Made by a program: the position numbers and the translations under genes. This document shows, piece after piece, positions 1-35,138 of a stretch of DNA of 64,000 nt; position 1 is the stretch's first letter; each line of letters starts with the position of its first letter. The stretch spans positions 2,252,001 to 2,316,000 of the forward strand of contig NZ_CP037948.1 in the NCBI RefSeq assembly GCF_004358425.1, given 5' to 3'. The notes beneath the pieces are model-generated. The model did not search any database. It saw only the letters and a program-made list of their open reading frames with translations, and was not told the origin of the DNA. This DNA comes from Qipengyuania sediminis (GTDB taxonomy: Bacteria; Pseudomonadota; Alphaproteobacteria; Sphingomonadales; Sphingomonadaceae).

Positions 1-654
1 GATGAAGGCCTCCAGCGCCCAGCCGATTCCGAGTAGCGCACCGCAGGTCAGCGCGAATATCAGCTCGGTGTTGGGACCCAGGAACTGGCCGTGGCTGTGG
101 TCGTGACCGTCCCCTGGCCAGTGCTTGCTGCCGTCGGCGTGGTCATGGTCGTCTCCCGGCGCATGGGTGAGCTCCGTAGCGTGTGCAGCCTTGTCGTCCG
201 ACGCGACCACCCCGGTGCGCGTTACCTTCAGCTTGGCGAGAGCGGCCAGGATCGCGGATTCCTCGATCGCCTGGCGGTCATACTCGACCCTCACGGTGCC
301 GGTGGCGCTGGCGTCCGCTTCGACAATACCCGGGATCGCGGCCAGAGTCTCAGCGACGGTGCGCGCCCGGCGTTCGTGGGTGATGCCCTTGACGGCCCAA
401 AGCCCGTGTCCGTAGCGTCCGCTCAACTCGGCGCCCGCCGCACGCACCAGTTCCCGCAGTCTAGGTAGAGGCAGCTGCTTGGCGTCGAAGTGCACGCATA
501 GCTGGGCGGGGCCGTCTGCGGGTGGGACCACATGCACCTCGGTCACGCCGGGTTTGGCCTTGATGGTATCCTGCAGGCGGCCGACGCAGGCGTCGGCAGC
601 GTCGGGCACGTCGGGTAGGATGAGGGGGAGGTCCAGCGCCAGCTTCTCGGTCAT
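1..654 (-). CDS. Heavy-metal P-type ATPase, N-terminal part (cut by window start)
   Basis: The frame is open from an ATG at 654 to the window edge (218 codons). The first ~145 residues read like two HMA-type metal-binding folds, but neither has the CxxC pair. They are followed by a His/Asp-rich linker (HDHADGSKHWPGDGHDHSHG) and the first membrane helix (ELIFALTCGALLGIGWALEAF). This order (HMA, His linker, TM) is that of Zn/Cd/Pb-exporting P1B-ATPases (ZntA/CadA); catalytic motifs lie outside the window. The ATG overlaps the stop of the CDF gene as ATGA, so it is the last visible gene of the czc operon. The ATPase class is family inference; the exact metal is not shown. Confidence 0.8.
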   Translation of the reverse strand, partial: MTEKLALDLPLILPDVPDAADACVGRLQDTIKAKPGVTEVHVVPPADGPAQLCVHFDAKQLPLPRLRELVRAAGAELSGRYGHGLWAVKGITHERRARTVAETLAAIPGIVEADASATGTVRVEYDRQAIEESAILAALAKLKVTRTGVVASDDKAAHATELTHAPGDDHDHADGSKHWPGDGHDHSHGQFLGPNTELIFALTCGALLGIGWALEAFI

Positions 655-1253
655 TGTTTCGCTTCTCCGTTCTTTCGCTGTTCCGTTCGGGCGTCGCGCA
701 GGATTTCGATGCCGCCCTTGATCGCGATCAGTGCGGTCGCGAAGCCCACCAAGAGGTCGGGCCAGTTCTGCCCCAGCCACAGCACCAGCGCGCCGGCCGC
801 GAGGATGCCGCCGTTCGAGATGAAGTCGTTGAAGCTGAACGTCGTTGCGGCGCGCAGGTTGACGTCTGGCTTCTCGATCCGCTGGAGCAGCCGCAGGCAG
901 AGGAAGTTCACCGCGGCCGCCACGGCCGACATTGTCATCATCGTCGGCCCGATGGGTTCGCTGCCGTAGAGGTAGCGCCATCCGACATCGATGAGGATGC
1001 CGATGGCGAAGATCAGCAGCATGACGCCCGAAGCGGTGGCTGCGCGCGTCTTCCAGACCGGCCCGTGGCTCAGTGCGACCAGGCTGAGCGCATAGACCGC
1101 GGTATCCGAGAGATTGTCGACCCCGTTGGCGATGAGGGCGCTCGAATCGCCCAGCGCCCCGGTGACGAAGAAGCCGGCGGCGATGGCGGCGTTGAGCACC
1201 AGCACCATCCACAGCGTGCGGCGTTCGAGGGCAGTGTCGGCCTGGGCAGTCAC
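651..1253 (-). CDS. CDF-family cation efflux protein (CzcD-like)
   Basis: About 200 residues with five to six hydrophobic segments and the CDF signature of an Asp-rich helix (ALIANGVDNLSDTAVYAL) near residue 45, plus a second metal-site helix (FSFNDFISNGGI). CDF proteins exchange cytoplasmic Zn/Cd/Co for protons. It lacks the long C-terminal cytoplasmic domain of typical CzcD, so it is a short form. I chose the GTG at 1253, which has AAGGGA about 8 bases upstream; a TTG at 1274 would add seven residues. It is the fourth czc gene after czcA and overlaps the following ATPase gene by four bases. Confidence 0.8.
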   Translation of the reverse strand: MTAQADTALERRTLWMVLVLNAAIAAGFFVTGALGDSSALIANGVDNLSDTAVYALSLVALSHGPVWKTRAATASGVMLLIFAIGILIDVGWRYLYGSEPIGPTMMTMSAVAAAVNFLCLRLLQRIEKPDVNLRAATTFSFNDFISNGGILAAGALVLWLGQNWPDLLVGFATALIAIKGGIEILRDARTEQRKNGEAKQ

Positions 1254-1337
1254 GCTAGCATCCCTTCGCTTCAATACGTTCCGACGATGGTGGGGAGACG
1301 CCTTGGAACGGTTGGCGTCTCCCGCATCGATCGCTTC

Positions 1338-4300
1338 CTATTTTGCCGGCAGCGGGCTGCCGAACCGGTCGACGTCGTCATAGTCGCCGGGCACATGCTC
1401 CTTCCCGCGGGGCCGCAGCAGGAGGCGGCTGATCGCGGGAAGCACGAACAGCGTGAGGACGGTGGCTGTGATCAGCCCGCTGATGACGACGATCGCCAGC
1501 GGCTTCTGGACCTCCGCGCCTCGCCCGGTCGCGAGCGCCATCGGCACGAACCCCAGCGACGCGACCAGCGCGGTCATGAGGACAGGCCTGAGGCGCTTGA
1601 GTGCGCTCTCCCTAATGGCCTCCTCGACCGTAGCTCCGGCGGCGCGCAGATCCTCCACTGAGCTCATCAGCACCAGGCCGTTGAGCACCGCGATGCCGGA
1701 CAGGGCGATGAAGCCCACCGCCGCCGAGATCGAGAACGGCAGTCCGGTCAGGGTGAGGCCGAACACGCCTCCAGCGAGCGCCAGCGGGATTGCGGAATAG
1801 ATCGCTAACGCCGGCCGCACGCTCCTCAGTGCCAGGAACAGCAGGGCGAAGATCAGCGCGAAGACCAGCGGCACCATGATCGACAGCCGCTGGGTAGCTG
1901 CCTGCAGGTTCTCGTATTGACCGCCCCACTCGATGAACACACCCGGCGGGAGGTCGACCTGATCGCCGACCCGCTCCTGGATATCCTCGACATAGGACCC
2001 CAGGTCGCGCCCGCGAACGTTCGCCTGGACCACGACCCGACGCTGGCCGTTCTCGCGGCTGACCTGGTTGACGCCGTCCGATATGCGGAACTGCGCGAGT
2101 TCGCGCAGCGGAAGCGATGCACGGATTCCGCTCCCCGTCTCCGGCAGCATTACCGGAAGCGCGCCGATTGCATCGAGGTCGTCGCGGGTCGCGTTGGGCA
2201 GCCGGACCACGATCGAGAAGCGACGGTCGCCCTCGAACACCAGCCCGGCCTCGCGCCCGCCCAGTGCGGCTGCGACCGTGTCGGTCACATCCGCGATCGA
2301 GAGGCCATAGCGCGATATGGCATCGCGGTTGAATTGCACGTCGAGCGTCGGGAAGCCTTCGGTCTGCTCGACACGGAGGTCCGCCGTGCCGTCAACTTCC
2401 GACATCACTGCGGAGATCTGCTGGGCGACACGGCCTGTCTGGTCGAGGTCGCTGCCGAATACCTTGACGGCGATGTCGCCGCGAACGCCAGCGATCAGCT
2501 CGTTGAACCGCATCTCGATCGGCTGGCTGATCTCGTAGGCGTTGCCGGTGAGTGTCGCCATTTTCCCTTCGATGCGCTCGACTACCTCATCCTTGGAATC
2601 GACACCGTCCGGCCACTCGTCCTTCGGCTTGAGGATGACGAAGGCGTCCGAGATGTTCGGCGGCATGGGATCCGTCGCGACCTCTGCCGTGCCTGTTTTG
2701 GAGAACACGTAGGCGACTTCCGGAAGGCTAGAGATCGCCCTTTCGACCCGGACCTGCATGTCCTTCGACTGGTCGAGCGCGGTCGACGGAATACGCAGCG
2801 CCTGGACGGCGAGGTCGCCCTCGTCGAGCTGCGGGATGAACTCGCGGCCGAGCAGCGTGAACAGCAGCCCCGCCAGCACAACCGCGCAGACCCCGGCTCC
2901 GACCCATGGCCACGGTCGCAGCAGCGCCCGCTCGAGGAGCGGAGCGTAGCGATCCTTGACCCAGGCGATCGGCTTTGCTTCCTTCTCCGCCACCTTTCCG
3001 GTGATGAGGATCGCCACCATCGCGGGAACGAAGGTGAGCGACAGGATGAATGCACCCGCCAGCGCGAGCATGACGGTCGCCGCCATGGGCGTGAACATCT
3101 TCCCCTCGACGCCCTGGAAGGTCAGCAGCGGGACGAAGACCAGGAAGATGATCGCCTGGCCGTAGACGGTCGGCTTGATCATCTCCCGGGTCGCCTCGTA
3201 GACCTCGTGGAGGCGCTCGTTCAGCGTGAGCAGCCGCCCCTCGTGGTGCTGCCGCTCGGCGAAGCGCCGCAGGCAGTTCTCAACGATGATGATGGACCCG
3301 TCGACAATCAGGCCGAAGTCGAGCGCGCCGAGGCTCATCAGATTGCCCGACAGGCCGAACCGGTTCATTCCCGTCGCCATCATCAGGAACGAGAAGGGGA
3401 TTACCAGCGTAGCGATGATCGCCGCCCGAAAGTTGCCGAGCAGGAAGAACAGGACTGCGATGACCAGCAGCGCGCCCTCCGTAAGGTTCTTCTCGACAGT
3501 CCAGATGGTCGCGTCGACCAGCGAGGATCGGTTGTAGACGGTCTGCACTGCGACGCCCGGCGGCAGGGACTTGGCGACCTCGTCGAGACGTTCGGCGGCC
3601 GCGTCGGCGACGATGCGGCTGTTGCCGCCTGCTAGCATCAGGGCGGTCCCGATCACGGTCTCGCGGCCGTTCATGGAAGCGGCGCCGCTCCGCAGTTCGC
3701 CGCCGACGGTCACATTGGCGACGTCGCTGACGGCGATCGGCACGCCGTTGCGGGTAGCGATCGTGGCGCGGCGGACCTCATCGACCTGCCTGATCCGGGC
3801 GTCGGCCCGGACGAGCAGCGCCTCGCCGCCGCGGTTGATGAAGTTGGCACCGACGGAGATGTTGGCCCGCTCGAGAGCCTCGGCCAGTTCGCGGAACGAG
3901 ATGCCGTAGCTGGCGAGGCGGCCGGGATCGGGTTGCACCACCAGCTGCTTCTCGTAGCCGCCGATGGAATCGACGCCCGCTATGCCCGTGACGGTGCGGA
4001 GCTGGGGGCGGATGATCCAGTCCTGCACCGTCCGAAGGTAGGCGAGCTTCGCGACATCGTCTCGAAGGACCTCACCCTCGAGCGTCAGATAGGAGCCGTC
4101 GGGCTGGAAGCCCGGGCGGCCGGCGACGCGCTTCTGGTCGGCGCGCGGGGCGTATTGCACGCTCCAGAACAGAACCTCGCCAAGGCCCGTCGAGACAGGA
4201 CCCATCTGCGGTTCCGCCCCCTCGGGCAGGGCGTCGCCTAGCTGTGCCAGCCGTTCCGATACCTGCTGGCGGGCGAAGTAGATGTCGACGTCCTCGTCGA

Positions 4301-4589
4301 AGACCGCCGTGATCTGCGCGAAGCCGTTTCGCGAGATGGAGCGGGTGTAGCTGAGCCCCGGTATCCCGGCGAGCGATGTCTCGACGGGAAAGGCAACGAG
4401 GCGCTCCATGTCGAGCGGTCCGAACTGGGGTGCGGGCACATTGACCTGCACCTGCTTGTTGGTGATGTCCGGCACCGCGTCGATGGGTAGCTTGAGGAGC
4501 TGGAACACCCCGTATGCGGCTACGGCGAGCGTGAGGACGACGACGGCCCAGCGGAAGCGGACTGAGGAATCGATGAGACGATCGATCAT
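1338..4589 (-). CDS. czcA: CzcA-type heavy-metal RND efflux pump (first copy)
   Basis: 1083 residues, the usual length of an HME-RND inner-membrane pump. The N-terminus has TM1 followed by the PDITNKQVQVN segment typical of CzcA/CusA. The proton-relay helix with [15 protein letters not shown] lies near residue 424, and the second large periplasmic domain and repeated TM block follow. It takes divalent cations (Zn, Co, Cd, Ni) from periplasm or cytoplasm and passes them to the CzcB/CzcC channel. The DFGxxxDGxxxxxEN pattern is that of divalent-cation pumps rather than Cu/Ag CusA. It follows czcB by 66 bases and precedes the CDF gene by 84 bases. Confidence 0.95.
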   Translation of the reverse strand: MIDRLIDSSVRFRWAVVVLTLAVAAYGVFQLLKLPIDAVPDITNKQVQVNVPAPQFGPLDMERLVAFPVETSLAGIPGLSYTRSISRNGFAQITAVFDEDVDIYFARQQVSERLAQLGDALPEGAEPQMGPVSTGLGEVLFWSVQYAPRADQKRVAGRPGFQPDGSYLTLEGEVLRDDVAKLAYLRTVQDWIIRPQLRTVTGIAGVDSIGGYEKQLVVQPDPGRLASYGISFRELAEALERANISVGANFINRGGEALLVRADARIRQVDEVRRATIATRNGVPIAVSDVANVTVGGELRSGAASMNGRETVIGTALMLAGGNSRIVADAAAERLDEVAKSLPPGVAVQTVYNRSSLVDATIWTVEKNLTEGALLVIAVLFFLLGNFRAAIIATLVIPFSFLMMATGMNRFGLSGNLMSLGALDFGLIVDGSIIIVENCLRRFAERQHHEGRLLTLNERLHEVYEATREMIKPTVYGQAIIFLVFVPLLTFQGVEGKMFTPMAATVMLALAGAFILSLTFVPAMVAILITGKVAEKEAKPIAWVKDRYAPLLERALLRPWPWVGAGVCAVVLAGLLFTLLGREFIPQLDEGDLAVQALRIPSTALDQSKDMQVRVERAISSLPEVAYVFSKTGTAEVATDPMPPNISDAFVILKPKDEWPDGVDSKDEVVERIEGKMATLTGNAYEISQPIEMRFNELIAGVRGDIAVKVFGSDLDQTGRVAQQISAVMSEVDGTADLRVEQTEGFPTLDVQFNRDAISRYGLSIADVTDTVAAALGGREAGLVFEGDRRFSIVVRLPNATRDDLDAIGALPVMLPETGSGIRASLPLRELAQFRISDGVNQVSRENGQRRVVVQANVRGRDLGSYVEDIQERVGDQVDLPPGVFIEWGGQYENLQAATQRLSIMVPLVFALIFALLFLALRSVRPALAIYSAIPLALAGGVFGLTLTGLPFSISAAVGFIALSGIAVLNGLVLMSSVEDLRAAGATVEEAIRESALKRLRPVLMTALVASLGFVPMALATGRGAEVQKPLAIVVISGLITATVLTLFVLPAISRLLLRPRGKEHVPGDYDDVDRFGSPLPAK

Positions 4590-4655: not shown

Positions 4656-5861
4656 TCAGTGCCCGGCATCGCTCGCCCCCAGCTGGGACTTCAGGACAAA
4701 CGCCCCGCCGGTGACGGCGACCTGGCCGGCCTTGAGCCCCTCGATGATCTGCGCCCGGCCGGCGCTGCGGCTCCCGATCATGACCGGGACGGCCTGGAAG
4801 CCGCCCGCGACCTGCACGAAGACGACGTCGCGGCCCTCGAACTGCTGGACGGCCTCCTCGGGAAGCACGAAGCCGCCTCCGGTCACGCTCCCGCGCGGCG
4901 TGATCCGAGCGCGAACAGCCTGTCCCTGCGTCAGCCCACCCGGCGTGCCGCCGACCTGGAGCACGACGGTCGCCGTCCGACTCTGCGGGTCCAGCGCGGG
5001 GGTGGAGGATCGCACGGTCGCCGAGACGGTCGATCCGTTCGGCAATTCGATGACGGCACCGTCGCCTGGCCTGATGCGCTGGGCATCGGCCGCCGGAACC
5101 GAGGCATCGATCTGGATGCGGCGGGGGTCGGCGACGTTGAATAGTTCGGTGCCGGCCGCGACATAGGCGCCGAGTTGGGTATCGACCTCGGTGATGCGGC
5201 CGCTGATCGGGCTGCGGACCGCGAGGTAGCGGCCGTTGTCGGTGACGCCGGCTGTCTGCACCGCGGCCTGGGTGCGCTGCAGTTCGGCCTCCGCCTGCGC
5301 ACGGGCGGCGTCGGCTGCCTCCAGGTCCTGACGCGCCGTGATGCGCGCGTTGAACAACCGCCTCTCGCGCGCTGCGGCGGCGCGTGCCGCCTGCGCGGTC
5401 GCTGCGGCCGAATTGCGCTCGGCGACAAAGGCGGCGGCCTCTCGGCTTTCGAGAAGCGCGACCGTCTCCCCCGCCGAGACGGGATCACCGAGGCGACGGT
5501 TGATGCGGACCACCGCCCCGTCGGCTCGAGCTGTGATCAATGCCTGGCCCTCTGGAGGTGCTGTAACCGTCGCCTGAGCGATGATCTCGGCGCCGATTGA
5601 GCCGGGCCGGATTGTGCTGGTCGCGATGCCGCTGGCCTGCATCCGGGCGGGGGTCATCTCCACAAAGCCCTCGCGCGCTTCTGCGCCACCTTCCTCGCCC
5701 GCATGGCTGTCCGCCTCGCCGCCGTCTCCTGCTCCCTCGGCAGCGGGCGTTTCCGCTATATCGCCGGTGGAGCGACCGACGAGTAGACCGGCGGCGCCGG
5801 CGACGAGCACCGCTGCAGCCGCCCCGGCCAACAGCGTCTTCCTTTCGATAGTGATTTCCAT
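4656..5861 (-). CDS. czcB: CzcB-type periplasmic adaptor (first copy)
   Basis: 401 residues from the ATG at 5861 (METI...). An upstream in-frame extension to 5933 would overlap czcC and has no signal, so I rejected it. The N-terminus has one membrane anchor (residues ~8-27), then a Glu/Gly/His-rich spacer (DSHAGEEGG), a lipoyl/barrel-sandwich half-motif, a coiled-coil hairpin rich in Ala/Arg (residues ~150-210) and the second half of the sandwich. It is the membrane-fusion partner linking CzcA to CzcC. Its start is 13 bases after the czcC stop. Compared with the second copy, it is TM-anchored rather than a lipoprotein. Confidence 0.93.
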   Translation of the reverse strand: MEITIERKTLLAGAAAAVLVAGAAGLLVGRSTGDIAETPAAEGAGDGGEADSHAGEEGGAEAREGFVEMTPARMQASGIATSTIRPGSIGAEIIAQATVTAPPEGQALITARADGAVVRINRRLGDPVSAGETVALLESREAAAFVAERNSAAATAQAARAAAARERRLFNARITARQDLEAADAARAQAEAELQRTQAAVQTAGVTDNGRYLAVRSPISGRITEVDTQLGAYVAAGTELFNVADPRRIQIDASVPAADAQRIRPGDGAVIELPNGSTVSATVRSSTPALDPQSRTATVVLQVGGTPGGLTQGQAVRARITPRGSVTGGGFVLPEEAVQQFEGRDVVFVQVAGGFQAVPVMIGSRSAGRAQIIEGLKAGQVAVTGGAFVLKSQLGASDAGH

Positions 5862-5874
5862 TGTCTTGGTATCC

Positions 5875-7200
5875 TTACTGTGCGGCGACGCGGCCGAGTT
5901 CGGCGATCGCGTTGGCGAGCGAGAGGCGCGCATCGACGAGCGCTAGCTGGGCGGTGCGGCTGGCGTTCTGGGCGTCGAGCAGTTCGAGGAGGCTCGCGCG
6001 GCCCTCGCGGTAGGAGAGCTGCGCCAGTCGGAGCGCCTCCGCCGCCTCGGGCACGCCGGCACCTTCCAGGGCCTCCACCCTCGCCTCTGCCGCCTCGACC
6101 GCGATGGCTGCGTTTCGGGCGCGCGCTGCGACGCTCGCACTGGCGTTCGCCAGCGTAGCTTCCGCCGAGCGGACCTCGGCGCGCGCGGCAGCGATGTTGC
6201 CCTGGTTGCGGTCGAACACCTGCAGTGGCAGCGAGATGCCGCCCACCAGCGCGAAGTCGCCTGTTTCGCGCACGTGTCGGACGCCCAGGCCCACGGCCGG
6301 GTCGAGCCGACCTTGGGCCAGCTGGGCAGTGACCTCGCTCTCCGCTCTCGCGCGCTCGGCTTCGGCCAGCCTGATTTCCAGGCTCAGTCGCGGATCGACC
6401 GATTGCGGGGGCGGTGCGAGCAGTTCGCCCACGACACCGGCGGGGGGTTCGACGACGCCGAACAGGCTGGCCAGCGTGCCACGCGCGGAGACTTCCTCGG
6501 CACGGGCAGCTTCGAGTTCGGCGGACGCTTGGGCGGCGGCCGACCTTGCGCGCACGGCTCGGAGCGGCGGATCACGTCCTTCCGCTACGAGAACACCGGC
6601 GACCCGGGCCACCTCCCGTGCGTTGGCCTCGTTCTCCTGGGCGATCCGCAGCCGTTCGCGGGCTGAGACTGCGCGGGCGAACTGCTGGCGCACCGATTGC
6701 GCCAGATCGGCGCGCGCAATCGCCAGGCGAAGCCGTTCCGAGGCGAGGGTCGCCCCAGCGACGGCAATCCTAGCGCGGCGGCGCCCTCCTAGGTCGAGGC
6801 GCTGGTTGAGCGACACCGTAGCCTCGGTCTGCCTCAGGCCGGAAAGCTCCCCGGTGCCGAGGAAGTTCTCAATCTCTATGCTGAGATCCGGGTTCACGCG
6901 ATAGCCGGCCTGGCGGATGCGCGCCTCGGCGGCCTCGACCCTCGCTTGCGCCGCGATGATTGTGGGCGAGCGCGCCTCTGCCTCGTCGAGCGCCTGCTCT
7001 AACGAGAGCATCGCCGGGAGGGGGCCGTCGCGCGGGACGAGCGTCTGCGTTTCGGTGAGGGGCGCCTCGTCGGGGGGACCCACAGGCGATGAGATGACTG
7101 GCGAACCGACGCGCGGGGTTGCAGGCGTGCTTACCTGCGCCCCGGCCGCGCCTGCGACCAGCATGGCTGCGGCCACAGCCGCAGCGGATTTGCGATACAT
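5875..7200 (-). CDS. czcC: CzcC-type outer-membrane efflux channel (first copy)
   Basis: 441 residues of the TolC/OMF family. A signal peptide (MYRKSAAAVAAAMLVAGAAGAQV) is followed by a Pro-rich segment and two repeats of long amphipathic helices rich in Ala, Arg and Glu, such as residues ~75-250 and ~270-440. It forms the outer-membrane exit duct for the CzcBA pump. The ribosome binding site AGGAG lies nine bases before the ATG and is also part of the inverted repeat at 7212-7264, so its access may depend on translation of the upstream gene. Confidence 0.93.
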   Translation of the reverse strand: MYRKSAAAVAAAMLVAGAAGAQVSTPATPRVGSPVISSPVGPPDEAPLTETQTLVPRDGPLPAMLSLEQALDEAEARSPTIIAAQARVEAAEARIRQAGYRVNPDLSIEIENFLGTGELSGLRQTEATVSLNQRLDLGGRRRARIAVAGATLASERLRLAIARADLAQSVRQQFARAVSARERLRIAQENEANAREVARVAGVLVAEGRDPPLRAVRARSAAAQASAELEAARAEEVSARGTLASLFGVVEPPAGVVGELLAPPPQSVDPRLSLEIRLAEAERARAESEVTAQLAQGRLDPAVGLGVRHVRETGDFALVGGISLPLQVFDRNQGNIAAARAEVRSAEATLANASASVAARARNAAIAVEAAEARVEALEGAGVPEAAEALRLAQLSYREGRASLLELLDAQNASRTAQLALVDARLSLANAIAELGRVAAQ

Positions 7201-7211
7201 GGAATTCTACT

Positions 7212-7264
7212 CCTGACAACAAGACCAGCCCGCCGCGTCATCGCGGTGAGCGCTCGTTGTCAGG
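7212..7264 (-). promoter_or_regulatory. Hairpin joining the end of the czcI-like gene to the czcC RBS
   Basis: On the minus strand CCTGACAAC (7264-7256) pairs perfectly with GTTGTCAGG (7220-7212). A smaller stem, CCGCG-ATGA-CGCGG, sits inside the loop. The left arm contains the TGA stop of the czcI-like gene; the right arm contains AGG of the czcC Shine-Dalgarno sequence. A ribosome finishing the leader gene would cover the left arm and free the RBS. The pairing is read directly; the regulatory role is inferred and is supported by the same layout at 34697-34781. Confidence 0.6.
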
Positions 7265-7601
7265 CGATGGGAGGCCTCAGCGCTTCGGATCCGTGCGCGC
7301 GGGGACGCCACGCGTCCTCATCCGGCATCGGGAAGGATCGAACCGTCGTGAAGGGCACGGAATTGGCGTCGATCCGGGCCGAGGACGCGGCATGGCCAGC
7401 GCAAGGCGCGTGGTGATGTGCAGATTCCTTGCCGCCGTGCGACTGCTGGTCGCTGTCACCTTCATAGTGACCGGCTGACTCGGAGACCTCCGCTACGCAG
7501 TCGGCGCTCGCCGCAGCCGCCGGCGGCTCGCACGCAATCGCGCCGAGGCCGAACGCCATCGCGGCAAGAATGAGGAGCATCCGCTGAAGCACGGCGGTCA
7601 T
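7260..7601 (-). CDS. CzcI-like small exported His-rich protein
   Basis: 113 residues with a hydrophobic N-terminal signal (residues ~7-27, ending near a Cys-Glu-Pro that could be a lipobox, GAIACEPP), then Ser/His-rich sequence (HYEGDSDQQSHGGKESAHHH) and a C-terminal ending RPPIA. Small exported proteins of this kind (CzcI/CnrX neighbourhood) sit before czcC in other bacteria and are thought to sense or buffer periplasmic metal. The second czc operon has an analogous gene (34755-35138) also ending in RPP. Family assignment rests on position, composition and the shared ending rather than clear sequence identity. Confidence 0.55.
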   Translation of the reverse strand: MTAVLQRMLLILAAMAFGLGAIACEPPAAAASADCVAEVSESAGHYEGDSDQQSHGGKESAHHHAPCAGHAASSARIDANSVPFTTVRSFPMPDEDAWRPRAHGSEALRPPIA

Positions 7602-28258: not shown

Positions 28259-28987
28259 CTAGGACTGGCTGACGGCGTAACCGGCGATCTGGTAGCCGAC
28301 CAAGAGGAAGCCCAGGGCCATGACGATGGTGTTCGCGGCGAAGGCGTGGCGCATGAAGCTGGAGGTGCGGCGCCAGAAGCCCATGACCACCAGGATGGCG
28401 CCCAGCGCCAGCAGCTGGCCGATCTCGACACCCACGTTGAACGCAATCAGGTTTTCGATGAGTCCTTCGCGCGGAATTTCGAACTCGACGATCTTGGTCG
28501 CCAGGCCGAATCCGTGGAAGAAGCCGAACACCAGCGTCGCCACCTTGGTGTTGGGCTGAAAGCCGAACCAGCGCTGGAAGGCGCCTAGATTGTCGAGTGA
28601 CTTGTAGACCACCGACAGGCCGATGATCGCGTCGATCACGTAGGCGTTGGCGCTGATCCCGGTGAGCACTCCGAACAGAAGCGTGGTCGAATGGCCGATG
28701 GCGAACAGCGTCACGTAGATGCCGATCTCCTTCAGCCGGTAGAGGAAGAAGATGACGCCGAAGAGGAACAGCAGGTGGTCGTATCCGGTGACCATGTGCT
28801 TCGCACCGAGGTAGATGTAGGCGAGGAACTGCACCCCGCTCATCTCCTGGATGTAGCCCTTGTCACCTTCGGCGACGTTGTGGGCCAGGGCCTCGGCGCT
28901 CGTGCACAGCAGCAGGAGGAGAACGACGGCCGCGAGGATGGCGCGGCGGGGAATAGCCGCCGGGTCGAACTGAAGCGGTTTCAGCAT
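28259..28987 (-). CDS. HupE/UreJ-type membrane protein
   Basis: 242 residues from the ATG at 28987 (MLKPLQFD...). A signal-like start ends at ALAHNVAEGDKGY. The family motifs GAKHMVTGYDHLLFLFGVIF, AIGHSTTLLFG and FGFFHGFGLA carry His and Asp in helices, resembling nickel permeases HupE/UreJ. It may move Ni or Co across the membrane, or pass metal from periplasm to cytoplasm. It follows czcA by 73 bases. Confidence 0.85.
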   Translation of the reverse strand: MLKPLQFDPAAIPRRAILAAVVLLLLLCTSAEALAHNVAEGDKGYIQEMSGVQFLAYIYLGAKHMVTGYDHLLFLFGVIFFLYRLKEIGIYVTLFAIGHSTTLLFGVLTGISANAYVIDAIIGLSVVYKSLDNLGAFQRWFGFQPNTKVATLVFGFFHGFGLATKIVEFEIPREGLIENLIAFNVGVEIGQLLALGAILVVMGFWRRTSSFMRHAFAANTIVMALGFLLVGYQIAGYAVSQS

Positions 28988-29060
28988 CTGGGGAACTCCA
29001 TGTGATCTTTGGTTGGGTCGCCGCCCGGGGCGGGGAAGCACGGGCGGCGTCAGGAGGGGC

Positions 29061-33463
<4,403 letters not shown>

Positions 33464-33465
33464 AT

Positions 33466-34689
33466 TCAGAAACCCCCAACAAGTTCGGCGAAGCGCCCGG
33501 TCAGCCGATCGAGGTCGGAGCGGGCGCGGTGATATTCGGAGAGAGCGGCGACCATTCGGACGCGGGCGTCCTGGAGCGCGCTCTGTGCGGTGGAGACGTC
33601 GAGGAATGTGAAGCCCCCGCGGTTGTAGCCGGCTCGCACCTCGCGCAGCGTCTGCTCAGCGCCCGGAATCACCTTCTCGCGGATCGCCTCGGCCTCGTGG
33701 CGCGCCTCCTCGACGCGCTCGGCGGCAAGCGCCACCTCGCTGCGGCGCTGAAACCGTTCGACCGCAAGGTCCGCCTCGACCTGCCGTTTCTCGGCCGTCG
33801 CACGCGCGACGTTTGCGGAATTGAGCGCGCGATTGCGCAGTGGCAGCGATACGCCAGCGACCAGTGCGACATCCCCGGACCCGAAGAGTCGTGGCCCCGC
33901 GAACACAGTGGGGTCGGTGCGCGTGGCGGCCTCCTGCAGCCGGATATTGGCGTCGGCCCGGCGGCTGCGCGCCTCGAACAGGGCGAGATCGACAGAAGTC
34001 AGTCCGACACCTTCGCCGGCAATGGCCTTGGGCTCCAGGAACCCGGCCGTGATAATCTCCATCGACGACGGCAATCCGCCGGTTAGCAGCGCCAGCCGGG
34101 ACTTGGCGGCGTCGAGTGCATGCTGGGCGAGCTCCAGATCGACCTTGGCCTCGGCGAGCTGCGTGCGGGCCCGGGTGCCCGCGAACAGCGGATCGCGCGC
34201 GTCATCGACCCGTCGCTTCACCTCGCGCTGCAGCGTCTGCGCGATCTCGACGCGGCTCTTCGCCAGCTCTAGGCGCAGTGCCGCGGCCTGGGCTTCCACG
34301 TAGAGCTGCTGGACCTGCTTCGCGAGGTCGAGCCGGCGGATCAGTGCCTCCGCCTCAGCTACGCCGATGTCGCCCTCGGCCAGATCGACGCGCGCTTGGC
34401 GCTTCCCGCCGCGCTCGATGCGCTGGTTGTAGGTGGCATCGACCTGGACCTGGCTGAACCCGCCGGTGCCGATGTTTTCTACCGTGCCGTCGATCGTCGC
34501 GGCTGGCTTTGTGTTCGCCGCGGCGCGGGCCGCTTCGAGGACTGCGGTTCTCGCCGCGGTGGCCTCGCCCTGCGGGGACTGGGTCACCGACCGGCGGATC
34601 GCCTCCTCCAGCGTGAGCGACTGGGCTGATGCCGCACTTGCCCACGCCATCGTGACCGCCAGCAGGGCGGCACGCGAAATCGCGTTCAT
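33466..34689 (-). CDS. czcC: CzcC-type outer-membrane efflux channel (second copy)
   Basis: 407 residues, TolC/OMF family. A signal (MNAISRAALLAVTMAWASAASAQ) leads into LTLEEAIRRSV, the usual OMF entry motif, and two long helical repeats. The ribosome site AGGAG is six to eight bases before the ATG and is buried in the hairpin at 34697-34781. The stop is two bases from czcB. Confidence 0.93.
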   Translation of the reverse strand: MNAISRAALLAVTMAWASAASAQSLTLEEAIRRSVTQSPQGEATAARTAVLEAARAAANTKPAATIDGTVENIGTGGFSQVQVDATYNQRIERGGKRQARVDLAEGDIGVAEAEALIRRLDLAKQVQQLYVEAQAAALRLELAKSRVEIAQTLQREVKRRVDDARDPLFAGTRARTQLAEAKVDLELAQHALDAAKSRLALLTGGLPSSMEIITAGFLEPKAIAGEGVGLTSVDLALFEARSRRADANIRLQEAATRTDPTVFAGPRLFGSGDVALVAGVSLPLRNRALNSANVARATAEKRQVEADLAVERFQRRSEVALAAERVEEARHEAEAIREKVIPGAEQTLREVRAGYNRGGFTFLDVSTAQSALQDARVRMVAALSEYHRARSDLDRLTGRFAELVGGF

Positions 34690-34696
34690 GATCTAA

Positions 34697-34781
34697 CTCC
34701 TGAGATTCCCGGCTTGGGCCGGCTGATTGGGACCGGACGTGAGCCCGGCTGGAATCAGCCCGCTCGGGGGGGTCTCAGGAG
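34697..34781 (-). promoter_or_regulatory. Hairpin joining the end of the second czcI-like gene to the czcC RBS
   Basis: On the minus strand CTCCTGAGA (34781-34773) pairs perfectly with TCTCAGGAG (34705-34697). Inside, GGCTGATT pairs with AATCAGCC. The left arms cover the last codons of the czcI-like gene and its TGA stop; the right outer arm is the czcC Shine-Dalgarno AGGAG itself. The same logic is seen at 7212-7264 with different bases, so it is not simple copying. Confidence 0.65.
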
Positions 34782-35138
34782 GGATTGCAGGCGCGTTGCG
34801 CCGTCAGCGACAGCAAGGCCGTCGAAAGGAAGGTCGGTGCCGGAAATCCAGGCTAGGAGATCCGTGTCGCCCGCGAGGAGAGCGAGGGTCACGTGCGAGG
34901 AGCCGTGATCGTGCGCGAGGCCCCTCTCTGGGCTGGGAGCCTTGCTGCCCGCGTCATCATCTGCGGAGGCGATGTCCTCCGCCCGCTCGTGGGAGTGGTC
35001 ATCGTGGTGCAGATGCTCGGCGACAGCCGAGGACAGGGGCGCGTGACCGGCGAGGTGCGCCGCGCCCGCGACATTGGGCACCAGCAAGGCGCTTATCAGC
35101 ACGCAGAAGGCGAGAATCCTAGCGATCACGCTTGGCAC
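34755..35138 (-). CDS. CzcI-like small exported His-rich protein (second copy)
   Basis: 127 residues if started at the GTG at 35138 (or 124 at the GTG at 35129). A signal helix (IARILAFCVLISALLVPNVAGAA) is followed by HLAGHAPLSSAVAEHLHHDD, more His, then TLALLAGDTDLLAWISGTDL and the end RLQSLLRPPRAG. The RPP ending and position before czcC match the first copy. It probably senses or buffers periplasmic metal and, by translation, controls czcC. A frame open to 35354 lacks protein character upstream. Confidence 0.55.
   Translation of the reverse strand: MPSVIARILAFCVLISALLVPNVAGAAHLAGHAPLSSAVAEHLHHDDHSHERAEDIASADDDAGSKAPSPERGLAHDHGSSHVTLALLAGDTDLLAWISGTDLPFDGLAVADGATRLQSLLRPPRAG

Follow-up and report, generated by a model that had tools for sequence, protein, structure and literature searches.

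A Putative Translational Leader Gate on Two czc-Type Efflux Operons of Qipengyuania sediminis

Organization of the czc Loci

The DNA analyzed here, referred to as the window, is a 64,000-nt stretch of the Qipengyuania sediminis sequence NZ_CP037948.1 (positions 2,252,001–2,316,000). It carries two operons in which czcC, czcB, and czcA, identified with Pfam, follow in that order 3' of a small leader gene. The first leader ends ...EALRPPIA-TGA, and czcC begins 59 nt away on the same strand, at 7200 on the minus strand. In the second operon, the leader stop codon lies at 34757–34755 and czcC2 begins at 34689, also on the minus strand. The features of the two operons are listed below, each with its basis.

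7260–7601, minus strand: leader gene (czcI-like, CutF-like), 113 aa, ending RPPIA-stop (translation and alignment with 37 leaders)
7392–7418, minus strand: codons of the leader metal motif HHHAPCAGH, residues 62–70 (translation; His/Cys enrichment in 72 leaders)
7269–7274, minus strand: Pro-Pro codons, residues 110–111, proposed pause site (PPxx-stop conservation)
7253–7264, minus strand: 5' arm of the outer stem (anti-Shine-Dalgarno, anti-SD), holding the TGA at 7262–7260 (folding, covariation, background helices)
7233–7246, minus strand: inner hairpin CCGCG-ATGA-CGCGG (folding)
7212–7223, minus strand: 3' arm of the outer stem, overlapping the czcC Shine-Dalgarno (folding, covariation, background helices)
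7210–7214, minus strand: czcC Shine-Dalgarno (SD) AGGAG (sequence)
5875–7200, minus strand: czcC, outer-membrane efflux protein, 441 aa (PF02321, E 1.1e-37)
4656–5933, minus strand: czcB, membrane fusion protein (PF16576)
1338–4589, minus strand: czcA, RND pump with a motif presumed to be of the divalent-cation type (PF00873 and motif)
34755–35129, minus strand: second leader, His-rich, ending LLRPPRAG-stop (with a guessed GTG start at 35129)
34773–34781, minus strand: second-operon anti-SD arm CTCCTGAGA, immediately 5' of Pro-Pro (folding and geometry)
34697–34705, minus strand: second-operon 3' arm TCTCAGGAG over the czcC2 SD (folding and geometry)
33466–34689, minus strand: czcC2, outer-membrane efflux protein (PF02321, E 5.2e-29)
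32219–33463, minus strand: czcB2 (PF16576)
29061–32327, minus strand: czcA2, RND pump with a motif presumed to be of the divalent-cation type (PF00873 and motif)

The CzcA motifs of both pumps are what we take to be the divalent-cation type and not the copper type; the copper-type HME-RND motif, AxGxxxxDAAxxxIEN, was found in neither CzcA. A cation-diffusion-facilitator-like protein (651–1274, minus strand) adjoins the first operon, and a HupE/UreJ-like membrane protein (28259–29041, minus strand) lies directly 3' of czcA2, both recognized by eye from their translations. At the gathering threshold, Rfam matched the window at one tRNA. A plasmid DNA similarity search returned 10 records, with query coverage below 80% in all of them.

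Hairpins at the Leader–czcC Junctions

A hairpin certainly exists at the czcC junction. The first-pass annotation of this sequence had proposed that the leader's stop region pairs with the ribosome-binding site of czcC, and this pairing was present: CCTGACAAC (7264–7256, minus strand, with the stop TGA at 7262–7260) is complementary to GTTGTCAGG (7220–7212), a segment that includes part of the SD AGGAG. At 12 bp (CCUGACAACGAG/CUUGUUGUCAGG), the stem exceeds the length first described, with CCTGACAACGAG (7264–7253) pairing with CTTGTTGTCAGG (7223–7212) on the minus strand through 11 Watson–Crick pairs and one G–U pair. This outer stem surrounds the inner hairpin CCGCG-AUGA-CGCGG. Folded alone, the hairpin reached −34.4 kcal/mol compared with −18.97 ± 3.01 kcal/mol for shuffled sequences (z −5.13; none of 200 shuffles as stable). 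In the wider, 121-nt context that had also been suggested for folding, the stem was still the core of the structure, but z was only −2.01, and 7 of 200 shuffles were as stable.

The second operon has a 9-bp outer stem (CTCCTGAGA/TCTCAGGAG) and an inner stem (GGCTGATT/AATCAGCC) that contains the leader stop codon (z −5.27; 0 of 200 shuffles as stable). The second operon had been described as following the same logic with different bases; the logic is the same but the geometry is not, with the anti-SD here lying 5' of Pro-Pro.

Conservation and Covariation among Relatives

A CzcC search of 397 genomes of the family gave a match at E ≤ 1e-60 in 105 genomes. The 113 match rows were reduced to 87 places that were examined, with 26 rows left out, and these places, together with the second operon and three places taken twice, made up 91 loci. 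A leader end was found directly 5' of czcC in 90 of them. The sole exception, L032, had no leader end, its upstream sequence resembled an insertion element by eye, and it was excluded from the alignment. The 73 unique junctions had leader–czcC gaps of 51–70 nt and a leader stop codon that was TGA in 71 and TAA in two (L061 and L086). In L070, L085, and L086, the stop was located via the Pro-Pro pattern and the czcC start was set by hand; the leader stop of L081 was likewise hand-set, and the czcC starts of L072 and L075 were hand-corrected. L081 (stop at about position 1402 of the oriented locus) keeps a PPPRA-stop end and the stem, but a stop 17 codons upstream interrupts its leader frame; either the leader has decayed or the sequence contains an error. 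In L070 and L072, the stop-region stem (CTGAT.A/T.ATCA) ends before a ATGGACGAGAACGGG stretch, far from the czcC start, and no 4-base SD was recognized.

The 73 junctions were aligned with MAFFT, and seven pairs were scored inward from the C preceding the stop codon. The covariation that the first-pass annotation had proposed to look for in homologous junctions was found, in statistics that ignore the kinship of the sequences, having no tree behind them: the seven pairs were formed in 91.4% of cells compared with 75.5 ± 1.2% in shuffles, both sides had changed in 80 cells compared with 29.5 ± 5.7, and the covariation score was 0.392 compared with 0.117 ± 0.014. Sliding the stem columns by 1–3 positions left 17.7–47.4% of cells paired, and RNAalifold recovered six of the seven pairs unprompted. 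Across the 73 junctions, neither pairs with a double change (3) nor extra pair types (15) were more numerous than in the shuffles. The four SD-side pairs are little informative because they are nearly fixed as stop codon and SD, while the three freely varying pairs occurred as four, five, and six kinds of standard pair. Distinct arm triplets were fully paired in 17 of 35 cases (18 were not), whereas combining arms across different sequences gave full pairing in 8% (95 of 1,190). After clustering at 70% identity, all three variable pairs were formed in 23 of the 37 representatives. Wobble is no proof of function on the leader/czcC RNA strand, since G–U cells (25) barely outnumbered A–C cells (22). 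Because the covariation test was passed, we consider the stem very likely to be a selected structure that hides the czcC SD.

Chance levels were estimated within the same genome, using 400 kb of its 2.4 Mb with genes called by a simple GC3 rule (357 genes), which gave 29 background junctions with a gap of 35–110 nt and an SD. Helices of at least six Watson–Crick pairs between stop codon and SD occurred in 2 of the 29 background junctions compared with 63 of the 73 unique czc junctions, and helices of at least seven in none compared with 52. Permuted czc spacers reached at least seven pairs in about 2% of 3,650 cases. In 10 of the 73 junctions the helix had at most five Watson–Crick pairs, which counts against a gate. 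An RNA model of the junction, R1, recovered the first-operon junction in the whole genome at E 9e-5 and missed the differently built hairpin of the second operon. Its second match in this genome, antisense in a fabG-like frame (by eye), was taken as chance.

The Leader Protein

The constant element of the leaders is a Pro-Pro four codons before the stop. The leader end read PPxx-stop in 72 of the 73 unique junctions, with Pro-Pro one codon earlier in the window's second operon, and in 66 of the 67 located without the Pro-Pro pattern or hand correction; the same C-terminus ended 4 of 350 coding-like ORFs sampled from the window's own genome. Pro-Pro was encoded by 12 synonymous codon combinations and is thus conserved as protein. 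Seventy-two leaders could be read, with starts picked by script and L081 absent for lack of an open frame. All 72 had Pro at −4, and 71 had it at −3; 71 were no longer than 148 aa from the script-chosen start. A hydrophobic N-terminal segment was present in 68 under a simple hydropathy criterion, which had also been used in choosing the starts. The window's leader was only 10–55% identical to 37 other leaders, and P110 and P111 were the only invariant positions across these 38.

About 40–47 residues N-terminal of Pro-Pro lies a His/Cys motif, with examples such as CxHGHCHH, HGCHGHH, and HHHxPCxGH. His/Cys enrichment spanned −43 to −54 from the C-terminus (n = 72): each of positions −44 to −47 was His or Cys in 48 to 61 leaders, and positions −48 and −49 in 35 and 39, respectively. 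The first leader of the window carries HHHAPCAGH, and the motif of the second has His only and no Cys. Pro-Pro and the upstream His/Cys motif had both escaped the first-pass annotation.

A profile search for leader homologs found 35 proteins, one of them 97% identical over its length. Among 60 genomes of the genus, seven leader matches reached E ≤ 0.01, of which only that of the own genome was convincing; the other six (E 0.0015–0.009, 28–34% identity) were set aside. NCBIfam CopL_fam (NF033807) scored the window's leader at 7.4 bits, below its cut-off of 40, and touched 10 of the 38 leaders, with a best E of 0.0028.

Geometry and Shine-Dalgarno Accessibility

Measured from the first base of the first Pro codon, the SD-pairing arm begins at +10 or +11 nt in 54 of the 73 junctions. 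Given the size of the ribosome footprint, this distance places the start of the arm at the leading edge of a ribosome with Pro-Pro in its P and A sites. The second operon and four relatives (L127, L132, L133, and L134) are built differently, with an arm that starts 9–10 nt upstream of the first Pro codon. The second-operon anti-SD occupies the codons immediately before Pro-Pro, 16–24 nt 5' of the stop, where it would be under a ribosome at Pro-Pro and perhaps uncovered by one at the stop. Since the anti-SD lies 5' of Pro-Pro in these five junctions, pausing at Pro-Pro is preferred over mere arrival at the stop. The first-pass annotation had predicted that czcC is translated only when ribosomes reach the leader stop; coupling is likely, but the stop rule is too narrow to be general, because the second-operon anti-SD lies upstream of Pro-Pro.

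Accessibility was scored in 68 of the 73 junctions, the remaining five having no recognized SD. The czc SDs were less accessible than background SDs, with a median unpaired probability of 0.203 compared with 0.300 (p 3e-4). When the stretch covered by a ribosome at Pro-Pro was masked, the czc median rose to 0.322 and the background median to 0.324. On masking, accessibility rose by more than 0.3 in 22 of the 68 junctions and exceeded 0.5 in 16. In the window's own junction, Pro-Pro masking lowered SD accessibility from 0.26 to 0.07, and the SD appears in the folding model to re-pair locally. L010, L016, L034, and L086, among six junctions printed, likewise showed an SD left unfreed by this masking.

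We weighed these results against plain translational coupling, in which any ribosome passing through the leader end would open the hairpin, the roles of Pro-Pro and of the metal motif lying in the exported protein and not in a pause. Such classic coupling would need no sensor and nothing beyond a covarying stem that hides the SD at the stop, and masking at the stop left the SD about as accessible as masking at Pro-Pro (means of 0.328 and 0.343, respectively). Plain coupling does not readily explain, however, why the PPxx-stop register is fixed in all but one of the junctions among leaders so divergent in sequence, nor why the anti-SD in the second operon and its four relatives lies 5' of Pro-Pro, where it may be uncovered at termination. 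We therefore regard it as unlikely, although it is the strongest of the competing explanations.

Occurrence beyond the Family

In a wider sample of 337 genomes from the class, five genomes outside the family had a CzcC match at E ≤ 1e-40. R1 found the junction in four of these five loci, from three families, with E values of 5e-4 (L124), 0.02 (L121), 0.057 (L123), and 0.42 (L125), the best false match being at 0.99. The upstream frame ended in PPRA or PPLA in the same four loci. In the fifth locus, L122, the R1 junction was not found.

A second czcC family gave 54 match rows in the 397 genomes, of which 30 were examined, with the upstream frame chosen by Pro-Pro itself. Such a frame, with Pro-Pro among its 15 C-terminal residues, was found by this very criterion in 29 of the 30 junctions, and in four loci it was not the longest frame. 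Pro-Pro lay within the last six residues in 25 cases and at −9 in four, and was absent in one (L148). The absence of such a leader from L148 and from L032 among the loci examined counts against the gate, as does the interrupted leader frame of L081. The four loci with Pro-Pro at −9 had short or displaced helices. In these loci (L143, L145, L149, and L154), Pro-Pro is nine residues from the stop (RPPKHLTISA and similar) and the hairpin is placed differently, possibly representing a third architecture. On a Caulobacter henricii plasmid, a TolC-family gene is preceded at 56 nt by a leader that ends EPPRV, a likeness seen at the leader end. The leader at about 6475–6810 (plus strand) of L156, which precedes a TolC-family gene, is absent from the PLSDB gene table of the Tardibacter plasmid pHSL4, a table that declares itself incomplete.

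Discussion

The best reading of these data, to which we give a probability of about 0.65, is a translational gate of the CutF kind on a divalent-metal-type RND efflux pump. The pump would then probably be made only while the leader is translated, as in CutF. In the proposed mechanism, a small, probably exported His/Cys leader is encoded by a message whose end forms a hairpin between the leader end and the czcC SD. Judging from this structure, czcC would be initiated poorly on free mRNA. The geometry suggests that a ribosome finishing the leader, above all one slowed at Pro-Pro, would cover the anti-SD and so free the SD. With the ribosome at Pro-Pro, the His/Cys motif some 40–47 residues back would sit just outside the membrane, and by analogy with CutF, binding of metal at this site could prolong the pause and increase czcC translation. 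These parts differ in strength. Translational coupling of czcC to the leader is likely, and ribosome pausing at Pro-Pro is somewhat more probable than its absence, whereas metal sensing by the leader, and which metal it would be, is plausible by analogy. Since the pumps carry a CzcA of the presumed divalent-cation type, Ni, Co, Zn, or Cd is weakly favored over Cu. The full form of the idea, in which divalent Ni, Co, Zn, or Cd, sensed by the nascent chain, holds a Pro-Pro-paused ribosome on the anti-SD, and in which two geometries were selected under the rule "anti-SD under the paused ribosome" rather than "hairpin at the stop", is tentative, and we place it somewhat below even odds.

The closest known system is CutF of Rhodobacter capsulatus, described as an exported nascent copper sensor that acts in cis, with a CXXXC motif, a proline-rich tail, and a stem-loop that hides the cutO SD (PMC9973294). 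Like CutF, the czc leaders are small and presumably exported, with a motif about 45 residues from the proline motif and an SD-hiding stem-loop, and the PPPRL at the end of the CutF C-terminus (PEPEGPPPRL; PMC8456105) has Pro-Pro at −4/−3, the same distance from the stop as in the first leader. The window's leader also shows three of the traits used to define CutF-like proteins in PMC9973294: it is shorter than 150 aa, has Pro-Pro in its last 15 residues, and precedes a same-strand gene within 1,000 nt (czcC, at 59 nt). For the N-terminal signal peptide that the definition also includes, the observation is the hydrophobic segment given by the hydropathy criterion in 68 of 72 leaders. According to the same paper, efflux channel genes are the commonest neighbors of CutF-like proteins, which often precede outer-membrane efflux genes, and clusters with His only, for which Ni/Co was suggested, adjoin HupE/UreJ genes; in the window, the second leader is His-only and a HupE/UreJ-like protein is encoded next to czcA2. 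The CutF proline tail by itself is reported there to have failed to stall ribosomes in E. coli. The systems also differ. What is encoded downstream here is a channel protein of the outer membrane that belongs to an RND pump of the divalent-metal type, and not a multicopper oxidase; the metal motif is rich in His and has one or two Cys, or in the second leader none, in place of CXXXC; and the czc leader stop codon lies within a stem for which covariation is seen. SecM, VemP, MifM, and the RAPP arrest peptides are likewise exported nascent leaders whose pausing opens an SD-hiding stem (PMC9973294, PMC12992588), but SecM, VemP, and MifM are described as sensing export and not metal. Neither leader of the window has the RAPP or RGPP C-terminus; they end in RPPIA and RPPRAG.

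The leader might instead be a working periplasmic protein like CzcI of Cupriavidus metallidurans, with a hairpin that sets only mRNA stability or processing. CzcI is a small, metal-related periplasmic protein encoded directly before czcC (PMC10127602, PMC9973294) and is described as quenching the pump (PMC10127602), the cutF-cutO stem-loop is reported to influence mRNA stability (PMC8456105), and the leaders are under purifying selection (dN/dS 0.06–0.37 in 28 of 34 non-independent pairs of relatives, six below 60% identity having been dropped). Yet CzcI is reported in PMC9973294 to have no C-terminal proline motif, the NCBIfam CzcI model (NF045614) touched 2 of 38 leaders at a best E of 0.0054 and left the window's leader unmatched at E up to 10, and a stability hairpin has no need to pair with the SD, so we consider this account improbable. 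Least probable is attenuation as in CruR, the DUF2946 uORF of Bordetella, with leader translation governing Rho-dependent termination before czcC and the hairpin secondary: CruR is also an exported nascent metal sensor with C-terminal Pro-Pro, 45 residues separate its CXXC from its RAPP (PMC9426467), toeprinting suggests that its ribosomes hold Pro-Pro in the P and A sites (PMC12992588), and the leaders show weak relatedness to DUF2946 (PF11162), which matched 12 of the 38 (E cut-off 10, best 5.6e-4; the window's leader 14.5 bits, E 0.061, below the gathering score of 23.7), but copper is described as lowering expression there through Rho termination across a 162-nt cruR–bfrG gap (PMC9426467), compared with which 51–70 nt leave little room for Rho loading, and the czc stem hides the SD. 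The finding thus belongs to the CutF/CruR class as a variant.

The first-pass annotation had presented leader-gated efflux as a translational layer on metal resistance; the mechanism finds partial support, but it is not new in kind, given the cutF-cutO precedent (PMC9973294). This analysis adds the covariation, the fixed spacing between Pro-Pro and anti-SD in its two geometries, and a connection to pumps whose CzcA motifs are presumed to be of the divalent-cation type. Among the matches listed from the open-licence literature, there was no leader-gated czcC in sphingomonads and no such leader for a metal other than copper.

Metal efflux is usually ascribed to transcriptional sensors. The covariation and fixed spacing extend the isolated Rhodobacter case into a testable rule, and the Pro-Pro/anti-SD signature may flag leaders that are annotated as "hypothetical protein" or not listed at all. 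If the CutF-like gate is real, metals other than copper would possibly be sensed by a leader of this kind, and sphingomonads, with some other alphaproteobacteria, would have a further, translational level of control, one that detects metal on the outer side of the membrane during synthesis of the leader.
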